Position numbers and translations under genes: made by a program
Assembly (NCBI GenBank): GCA_021809755.1
Contig: JAJZJZ010000010.1
Coordinates: 1 to 38,158, forward strand
Length of the DNA stretch: 38,158 bases
Direction of reading: 5' to 3'
Source: Thermoplasmata archaeon
Lineage (GTDB): Archaea > Thermoplasmatota > Thermoplasmata > Thermoplasmatales > Thermoplasmataceae
Shown here: in pieces, positions 36,025 to 38,158 of the stretch
How the letters are laid out: the number at the start of each line of letters is the position of its first letter
How positions within the stretch are numbered: position 1 is the stretch's first letter
The notes under the pieces: generated by a model
Seen by the model: the letters and a program-made list of their open reading frames with translations, nothing else
The model's database searches: none
Told to the model about the DNA's origin: nothing

Positions 36025-36882
36025 ATGGCTCAAAAAATAACAGATATGATCAATTTAGGCGGACATGTTTCTACAAGCGGTGGAGTTGAGAATTCTCCTG
36101 ATAGAGCTGCAAAGTTCTCGTTTAAATCATTCCAAATATTCTCAAAGAATCAAATGCAATGGAATGCTAAACCTCTTGAAAAGGAAGTAATCGATCTCTT
36201 TAAAGAGTCGAGGAAATCAAACAACATATCTAGCGTCATGATCCATGCTTCTTATCTGCTCAACACTGCAACCAGCGATACGGAATTGAAAGAAAAAGTG
36301 AGGACCGGATTGTCCCTGGAAATAGAGAGAGCAGACATGTTAGGAGCTGATCTATTAACATTCCATCCCGGGTCCAAGAAGGAAGCAACTATCGAAAAAG
36401 GGATTGAGAATGTTGTGGAAATTCTTAATTCTGTCATCAAGAAACAACAGAACGTTAAGGTGTTAATTGAGAATTCAGCTGGACAGGGTAACAGCGTTGG
36501 AAAAACCTTCCAAGAACTTGCCTCAATAATAGATGGGGTTCATCTAAAAGATAAAATTGGGATTTGCCTGGATACCTGTCATATATGGGCTGCAGGATAT
36601 GACATTGTGTCTCCTGAGGGATATAAGGAAACCATGGACAATTTAAAGTCAAATCTTGGTATGAAATATCTTCTTGGCTTCCATATGAATGATTCTAAAA
36701 AAGGGAAGGGATCAGGTATAGACAGACATGAACAGATTGGGAAAGGAACTATCGGCCTTGAAGGATTCAGGAATTTTATCTTCGATGATGAAATAAGGGG
36801 GAAACCTATGATCCTAGAAACGCCTAAGGGCGAGGATGGATATATGGATGATATAAATGAACTCAATTCAATCTTAAGGTAA
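36025..36882 (+). CDS. nfo: Endonuclease IV (AP endonuclease, Nfo)
   Basis: 285 residues, normal length. It cuts DNA 5' to abasic sites in base-excision repair using three zinc ions. All ligand motifs are visible in order: LGGHVSTSGG, MIHASYLLN, LTFHPGS, IENSAGQGN, GICLDTCHIWAAGYD, GFHMNDS, DRHEQIGKGTIG and MILETPKGE. The last segment before the stop is normal. It forms a likely two-gene unit with the DUF1015 gene, whose start is only 9 bases downstream of its stop. A TTTTATG TATA-like element is about 29 bases before the ATG. Confidence 0.97.
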   Translation: MAQKITDMINLGGHVSTSGGVENSPDRAAKFSFKSFQIFSKNQMQWNAKPLEKEVIDLFKESRKSNNISSVMIHASYLLNTATSDTELKEKVRTGLSLEIERADMLGADLLTFHPGSKKEATIEKGIENVVEILNSVIKKQQNVKVLIENSAGQGNSVGKTFQELASIIDGVHLKDKIGICLDTCHIWAAGYDIVSPEGYKETMDNLKSNLGMKYLLGFHMNDSKKGKGSGIDRHEQIGKGTIGLEGFRNFIFDDEIRGKPMILETPKGEDGYMDDINELNSILR

Positions 36883-36891
36883 TGATATAAA

Positions 36892-38091
36892 TTGATAGTT
36901 AAACCTTTTAGACCTTTCCTATACAACAAAAACTTGGAAAATGTTATGTCGCCTCCCTTTGACACGATTCCAGCGGACCAGGAAAAAGCCCTCCTTGGAA
37001 TACCTTACAATGTTTCTCACTTAAGCAGGCTAAGTTGGAACAATGAAAGTTCGTATAATTTACTCAAGAAATGGATTTCTGAAGGTGTTCTTGTAAGAAC
37101 CGATGAACCAGTTATGATAATAGTTTCCCAGTATTTTAAACACAACTCAGAAATGTTCCAGAGGCTGGGAGTTATATGCCTTACAGACCTGATATCCGAG
37201 GGTTCTACCATCAAACCTCATGAAGATACAATAGAGGCATATGTAATACAAAGACGACAATTGATGGAAACTCTTAAGAGCCAGCTGGAACCTGTTTTTC
37301 TGATTTCATTTGAAAATCAACTGGAAAAGAACCTTAATAGATTAATATCAGGAAAACCGCCTGATAAAATTGTGGAAGAATCTACCGGAGTAAAAAATTA
37401 CATTTATATCATAAAGGAAGAACAAAGCCTTCTCAAAATTGAGGAAATACTGAGAGGTAAGAATTCTGTCATTGCAGATGGCCATCACAGAATCAGAGCT
37501 TCAAGGGATCTATTGGAATCTGCAAAGAATCAGCAGGAAAGGGACTTTTGGAGATTTTCATTAACATATATAACATCAGTATATGAAAGGGCAATAAAAA
37601 TAGGCGGCATTCATAGACTGGTAAAGGACAATAAGCATACCACTTCCTCCATATTACAAAACATTTCAGATGTTTTTAGGGTTGAAACCATAAACAATTA
37701 CCACTCGGATGGAGAGATCGTTTTGTATGATGGTAAATTCAATAATTTGATACCAAAGAAGGAAAATGTCAGGAAAGAATTCCTTGATGGTAACCTCAAA
37801 GGATTATCATCCCCCTTCCTTGTTGATTACTTCATTTTTAGGAGAACCCTCAACATGAATCAGGAGTCAAAGGACACCCTAATAGAATATACAAATGATG
37901 TTGCTACTGCAATAAATTCGGTTGACAGAGGTATTGCATCATATGCAATTCTAATGCCAAGTTGGGATAAAGAAGAGTTTATGAATGAAGTTATAGCTGG
38001 AGAGATTATGCCTCCAAAGTCAACATATTTTTACCCCAAGATTCCTTCAGGTATTGCAATCGAATCTCTCTTAGGGGTTCCGCCACTGTAG
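36892..38091 (+). CDS. DUF1015 family protein overlapping tRNA-Thr
   Basis: 399 residues from a TTG at 36892. Family landmarks: the opening VKPFRPFLYN, MSPPFDTIPADQE with LGIPYNVSHL, the glutamate/dipeptide loop H-E-D-T, and NSVIADGHHRIRAS, which is the A-D-G-H-H-R-Y motif of DUF1015 (COG4198). The biochemical function is not established; the family is sometimes linked to serine kinase-like or amino-acid metabolism. The stop codon TAG (38089-38091) lies inside the tRNA-Thr gene as nucleotides 8-10 of the tRNA. RNase P cleavage would remove the last three sense codons except two bases. It is probably cotranscribed with endonuclease IV. Confidence 0.9.
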   Translation: MIVKPFRPFLYNKNLENVMSPPFDTIPADQEKALLGIPYNVSHLSRLSWNNESSYNLLKKWISEGVLVRTDEPVMIIVSQYFKHNSEMFQRLGVICLTDLISEGSTIKPHEDTIEAYVIQRRQLMETLKSQLEPVFLISFENQLEKNLNRLISGKPPDKIVEESTGVKNYIYIIKEEQSLLKIEEILRGKNSVIADGHHRIRASRDLLESAKNQQERDFWRFSLTYITSVYERAIKIGGIHRLVKDNKHTTSSILQNISDVFRVETINNYHSDGEIVLYDGKFNNLIPKKENVRKEFLDGNLKGLSSPFLVDYFIFRRTLNMNQESKDTLIEYTNDVATAINSVDRGIASYAILMPSWDKEEFMNEVIAGEIMPPKSTYFYPKIPSGIAIESLLGVPPL

Positions 38092-38154
38092 CTTAGCTGG
38101 TTGAGCAGCTGATTCGTAATCAGCAGGTCGGGGGTTCAAATCCCCCCGGTGGCT
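38082..38154 (+). tRNA. tRNA-Thr(CGU)
   Basis: 73 bases. The acceptor GCCACTG pairs with CGGTGGC (one T-G wobble), discriminator T73, D-stem GCT/AGC, anticodon stem GCTGA/TCAGC with loop TTCGTAA (anticodon CGT, reading ACG) and T-arm GGGGG-TTCAAAT-CCCCC. No intron and no encoded CCA. No clear TATA element lies at the usual distance upstream, where the sequence is coding for DUF1015, so it may be processed from the mRNA. Confidence 0.96.
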
Positions 38155-38158
38155 TATT

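Follow-up and report, generated by a model that had tools for sequence, protein, structure and literature searches.

A tRNA-Thr(CGU) gene that overlaps the end of a DUF1015 coding sequence in Thermoplasmata, with a candidate tRNA promoter inside that coding sequence

Introduction

In animal mitochondria, tRNAs cut from a polycistronic transcript set the ends of the mRNAs (tRNA punctuation), with stop codons that lie at or in the tRNAs and that may be completed by polyadenylation. The junction described here is similar in that the end of a coding sequence and a tRNA share bases on the same strand, and in that excision of the tRNA and an intact stop codon would compete on any RNA that holds both. 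It differs in that the junction encodes a full TAG and that the tRNA probably has a promoter of its own.

The junction also has features of archaeal tRNA genes with TATA/BRE promoters, of archaeal intragenic transcription starts, and of elements integrated at archaeal tRNA genes. A study of Haloferax volcanii gives close transcription starts for 39 of 52 tRNAs (PMC4983044); our locus likewise has a TATA-like box upstream of the tRNA, but this box lies within a coding sequence and further upstream than in other tRNA genes of a relative (G003). That study also counts 1153 internal transcription starts (PMC4983044). As with those starts, the candidate promoter is found within a coding sequence; it differs in its association with a tRNA and in being spelled by codons of a conserved motif of the protein. 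As in integrated elements, inserted DNA in relatives has copies of the tRNA 3′ end at its sides, and unlike in those elements the intervals are of 0.4–5.4 kb, with varied cargo and no integrase recognised in the ORFs scanned. A literature search (titles and the starts of abstracts, open-licence papers) returned no description of a DUF1015/tRNA-Thr(CGU) junction.

Genomes and DUF1015 copies

We searched 77 genomes of the family, and 69 of them have a DUF1015 match at E values up to 1e-20. Our table covers 69 genomes and contains 81 DUF1015 copies that have the C-terminal motif, including the probably foreign contig C138 (see below) and one genome from outside the family (G056). Outside the 81 are 15 of the 16 order-level regions, which are without the motif, G094:C121, and partial matches at contig ends (e.g. 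G069, G090, G096:C44, G095:C94, G024:C110 and G002:C201). We call a copy linked if tRNA-Thr(CGU) overlaps the coding sequence or begins no more than 16 nt after its end.

The DUF1015 gene ends inside tRNA-Thr(CGU)

The window is the whole stretch of DNA that was analysed (38,158 nt). Its relevant genes are as follows:

36025..36882, + strand: AP_endonuc_2 (endonuclease IV-like) gene (PF01261, E 9.6e-53)
36892..38091, + strand: DUF1015 coding sequence, 399 aa, TTG start and TAG stop (PF06245, E 1.7e-55)
38082..38154, + strand: tRNA-Thr(CGU), on which ARAGORN and Rfam agree
38082..38091, + strand: 10-nt same-strand overlap of the coding sequence and the tRNA (ORF and tRNA coordinates)
38089..38091, + strand: TAG, at once the DUF1015 stop codon and nucleotides 8–10 of the tRNA (read from the sequence)

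The stop codon of the DUF1015 coding sequence thus lies inside tRNA-Thr(CGU) on the same strand. A preliminary description of this DNA had reported the TAG at tRNA nucleotides 8–10 and the 10-nt overlap, and the ORF, ARAGORN and Rfam coordinates confirm both; the Rfam score of the tRNA is 68 bits, as compared to a gathering score of 29. A tRNA with T8-A9-G10 forces a stop on any coding sequence that enters in that frame. In this tRNA the remaining two frames soon meet a stop as well (TAG at 38094–38096 and TGA at 38102–38104). Upstream, 9 nt separate the AP_endonuc_2 gene from the DUF1015 start, and the former is a probable operon partner of the latter. The DUF1015 gene is the last gene of the window; its contig, C26, ends at 38158, 4 nt past the tRNA.

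For the function of DUF1015, a search for solved relatives gave none at E values up to 1. Residues 321–385 weakly resemble the archaeal ADP-dependent serine kinase SerK (NF053625, E 0.0076). This is the single NCBIfam match of the protein, at 15.4 bits far under the cut-off of 380, and we take it as a weak lead on the function, with no assignment made.

Recurrence of the overlap in relatives

Comparison of related genomes, a check that the preliminary description had suggested, gave 15 further copies with the same arrangement. Among the 81 copies, 43 are linked to tRNA-Thr(CGU), and 16 (the window included) have the 10-nt overlap with the stop at tRNA nucleotides 8–10; the 16 come from four genera of one family of the acid-loving Thermoplasmata, namely g9 (10/10 genomes), g18 (3/3), g19 (the one genome tabulated) and g1 (2/4, the window's genome and G002). 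Ten copies have a longer overlap of 38 nt, ending with TAA at tRNA nucleotides 36–38: C138 and nine of genus g12, where this arrangement is found in 9/9 tRNA-linked copies (L044, L045, L281–L287). The predicted g12 proteins have a tail ending in AADS that is encoded by tRNA sequence. A 15-nt overlap is seen in G003, after an apparent one-base frameshift, and the remaining sixteen linked copies have gaps of 1–16 nt between the coding sequence and the tRNA, including G001, where a TGA lies just upstream of the tRNA (5-nt gap). The overlap is therefore a constant feature of some genera, and in the genus of the window it has been either acquired or lost.

Elsewhere in G003, where 30 of 46 tRNAs were tested against mechanically called ORFs, two other tRNAs are overlapped by 21 nt and one by 1 nt. 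A 506-codon ORF running 21 nt into another tRNA is seen on two different contigs (L172 and L173; G003:C6:29428 and G003:C4:1479).

A candidate promoter in the codons of a conserved motif

The C-terminal motif KSTYFYPK is nearly invariant at the protein level, and its Thr-Tyr-Phe codons form an A+T-rich box upstream of the tRNA:

38017..38040, + strand: codons of the conserved C-terminal motif KSTYFYPK (sequence and alignment)
38023..38033, + strand: proposed TATA box of the tRNA, ACATATTTTTA, at −59..−49 from the tRNA (codon constraint)
38026..38033, + strand: core of the proposed box, TATTTTTA (sequence)
38053..38059, + strand: predicted transcription start of the pre-tRNA (about 27 nt past the box centre)

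The predicted start uses a published spacing, by which the archaeal TATA box is centred about 27 nt before the transcription start (PMC5316973). In tRNA-linked copies the motif codons are mostly ACA TAT TTT TAT/C, and the box that they spell is probably a TATA-like tRNA promoter inside the coding sequence.

A nearby tRNA goes with constraint on the codons of the box. For Phe, TTT is used in 43/43 linked copies (42/42 without C138) as compared to 12/38 unlinked copies, and ACW-TAT-TTT is found in 38/43 linked and 3/38 unlinked copies. From the linked genes' own codon usage, TTT would be expected in 13.2 of 23 cases, and it is observed in 23 of 23. These tallies over the 81 copies, the codon-usage expectation and the tree-based paired test below all count C138 (row G000b).

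C138 was excluded from a test of 57 alignment columns in which the residue is common to 19 or more of the 21 linked genes (every residue except M and W was admitted). The comparison is made among the same genes, and hence on the same tree, which makes it the best control that we have. The four most fixed codons of the 57 columns are the three neighboring box codons for Thr, Tyr and Phe (ACA in 19/21, TAT in 20/21 and TTT in 21/21 linked genes) together with Q82; the latter, CAG, ties for the top and is preferred by unlinked genes too (14/18), whereas the box codons are variable in unlinked genes. The codons flanking the box, for Lys before it and for Tyr, Pro and Lys after it, vary in the linked genes. 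An A+T-rich box of about 8 bp, the core given above, is thus constrained in 21 linked genes.

Further evidence comes from genomes in which the arrangement differs. In G015 and G031 the tRNA is detached, starting 63–65 nt past the stop; there the motif Phe is TTC, and a similar box, ACATATTTATTTATC, is found between the genes at −45..−31. The codon contrast is repeated within G010 and within G014, each of which has a linked and an unlinked copy. It is contradicted within G030, whose second, unlinked copy reads TAT-TTT (one of six unlinked copies that do so), and the Tyr codon is TAC in 5/6 linked rows of genera g2 and g3. In the tree-based paired test, the independent pairs are too few to decide (6 on the best tree, 1 when well-supported branches alone are used). 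Within the genus, codon identity is only weakly raised at the 3′ end of the gene, with values as high in 81 of 330 comparison windows against G001 and in 23 of 263 against G002; against G003 the measure is uninformative.

Proposed expression of the junction

We propose, with a probability of roughly 0.8, a compact and conserved two-promoter junction, in which tRNA-Thr(CGU) would be transcribed mainly from its own promoter in the DUF1015 coding sequence while stops in the tRNA would close that coding sequence. DUF1015 would be made from an upstream (operon) mRNA, on which the stop carried by the tRNA would be put to use. Most of the tRNA would come from an archaeal promoter with its TATA box in the Thr-Tyr-Phe codons, and RNase P would then trim a predicted leader of about 23–29 nt. 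The tRNA is probably independent of the DUF1015 mRNA. The coding sequence may lose its own stop harmlessly, with the tRNA ending the protein at nucleotides 8–10 or, in another frame, at nucleotides 36–38; its own stop would be dispensable because every frame of the tRNA soon meets a stop.

Alternatively, the tRNA could be promoterless and cut from read-through RNA of DUF1015, each transcript giving either the full-length mRNA or the tRNA. This is consistent with the position of the box. Upstream of 44 other tRNAs of G003 an A+T peak is seen at −34..−23, where the locus has no A+T-rich box; the proposed box is more than 20 nt further upstream, which implies a longer leader. De novo motif searches upstream of the 44 tRNAs gave no usable TATA model, and in them the box was not recovered and did not score high. 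Genes without a nearby start do occur, as 13 of 52 tRNAs of Haloferax volcanii are without a close one, and one of them is maybe in a multicistronic operon (PMC4983044). Against read-through as the source of the tRNA, the constraint on the box codons is seen only with the tRNA close, and with a detached tRNA a similar box is found in the intergenic stretch. We consider this alternative unlikely.

The same evidence bears on the preliminary description, which found no separate tRNA promoter obvious and held that one transcript can give an mRNA or a mature tRNA but not both. The former statement is unsupported, given the TATA-like box at −59..−49 inside the coding sequence, whose codons are fixed only with a close tRNA, and the similar intergenic box of G015 and G031; a tRNA without its own promoter was probably the wrong premise. 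The logic of exclusion is valid for an RNA spanning both genes and is limited to such read-through RNA: there, RNase P cutting and full translation would be mutually exclusive, and if cutting wins, the remaining DUF1015 mRNA would be stop-less. That a cut before G38082 removes the stop codon follows by inference from known tRNA processing. A transcription start near 38070–38082 had been named as counting against the either/or claim; the start that we predict, at about 38053–38059, is upstream of that range and would count against it equally.

It is quite improbable that the overlap has been selected as a switch, in which DUF1015 output and the maturation of tRNA-Thr(CGU) would control one another. 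In such a switch, a ribosome at the tRNA-borne stop would keep the nascent tRNA unfolded and uncut, and an RNase P cut would leave a stop-less mRNA. The case for it would be strongest in g12, with the stop in the anticodon loop and about 12 protein residues encoded by the tRNA.

If the two-promoter junction is real, one stretch of DNA would serve as a conserved protein motif and a tRNA promoter, and some bases on, as a protein stop and the body of a tRNA. Synonymous codons could then expose a promoter inside a gene, an overlap of a coding sequence with a tRNA would be no proof of a common transcript, and the harmless loss of the coding sequence's own stop would be explained.

Insertion site behind the tRNA

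In relatives, DNA is inserted at this tRNA, and a repeat of the tRNA 3′ end flanks the insert. The part concerned is as follows:

38112..38154, + strand: tRNA 3′ half, repeated downstream in relatives (sequence comparison)

Of 44 loci for which 1.2 kb or more can be seen behind the tRNA, 14 have a 31–45 nt copy of the tRNA 3′ half 0.4–5.4 kb downstream; this proportion should not be read as unbiased, as 16 loci with longer sequence were partly chosen for fragments already seen, and the weakest copies (81–82% identity) may be due to chance. The repeat begins at tRNA nucleotides 29–36, so an insertion leaves the candidate promoter, the coding sequence and the stop intact.

The cargo includes a type I restriction-modification system (contig C53, L069), PIN-domain proteins (G002, G010 and G014), a GNAT protein (G001) and a methyltransferase (G016); in G018 and G019, ORFs of the intervals resemble PIN-domain genes on visual inspection. 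Pfam scans of 9 of the 39 interval ORFs recognised no integrase, and in 14 genomes PF00589 had no match up to 10 kb away on that contig, within the limits of the contigs (several are short). The inserts behind the tRNA are possibly non-autonomous cassettes moved in trans. By eye, many of the inserts at L069 and L073–L082 have common end sequences. Two units lie in tandem in G019 (L077, 14011–8649), and the flank past the second unit resembles the flank directly behind the G017 tRNA (L079), as would be the case for an empty site. In C53 and G003 a common flank is found behind the fragment, with different inserts.

Alternatively, the fixed ACATATTTT codons could be a signal for something other than tRNA transcription, such as an mRNA structure or an arm site for a recombinase beside the insertion site. 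The use of the tRNA 3′ half as an insertion site in relatives agrees with an arm site, but the sequence that is repeated is the tRNA 3′ half and not the upstream side, and genera g9 and g18 carry the box with a downstream tRNA fragment in only 1/13 loci (G011), within the visible sequence. Such a signal is therefore very improbable as the cause of the constraint, which is probably due to a tRNA promoter.

Assembly quality and probable foreign contigs

The assembly from which the window comes is fragmented (179 contigs, 86% complete), and the window lies at the end of contig C26. This position, together with the TGA and 5-nt gap of G001 and the apparent one-base frameshift of G003, would fit an assembly slip near the contig end with the true stop of the coding sequence a few codons earlier, but we give this next to no credence, as the overlap is also found in G002, where the protein tail reads DIPPL in place of the window's GVPPL, and as the stop falls on these tRNA nucleotides in 14 copies from three further genera.

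Foreign contigs are probably present in the assembly. Contig C138 (L071) is 99.7% identical over 3010 nt to G014, which belongs to another genus, and is probably foreign to the window's genome; in total, 67 tRNA matches are found in the window's assembly and 46 in the relative G003. At the junction and in its flanks, contigs C53 and C108 are similar to G003. We had considered that the window's genome has several copies of the junction, and dropped this idea because C138 is probably foreign and C53 and C108 are G003-like. That the contig breaks off at this point may be due to the variable insertion site or to mixed strains.
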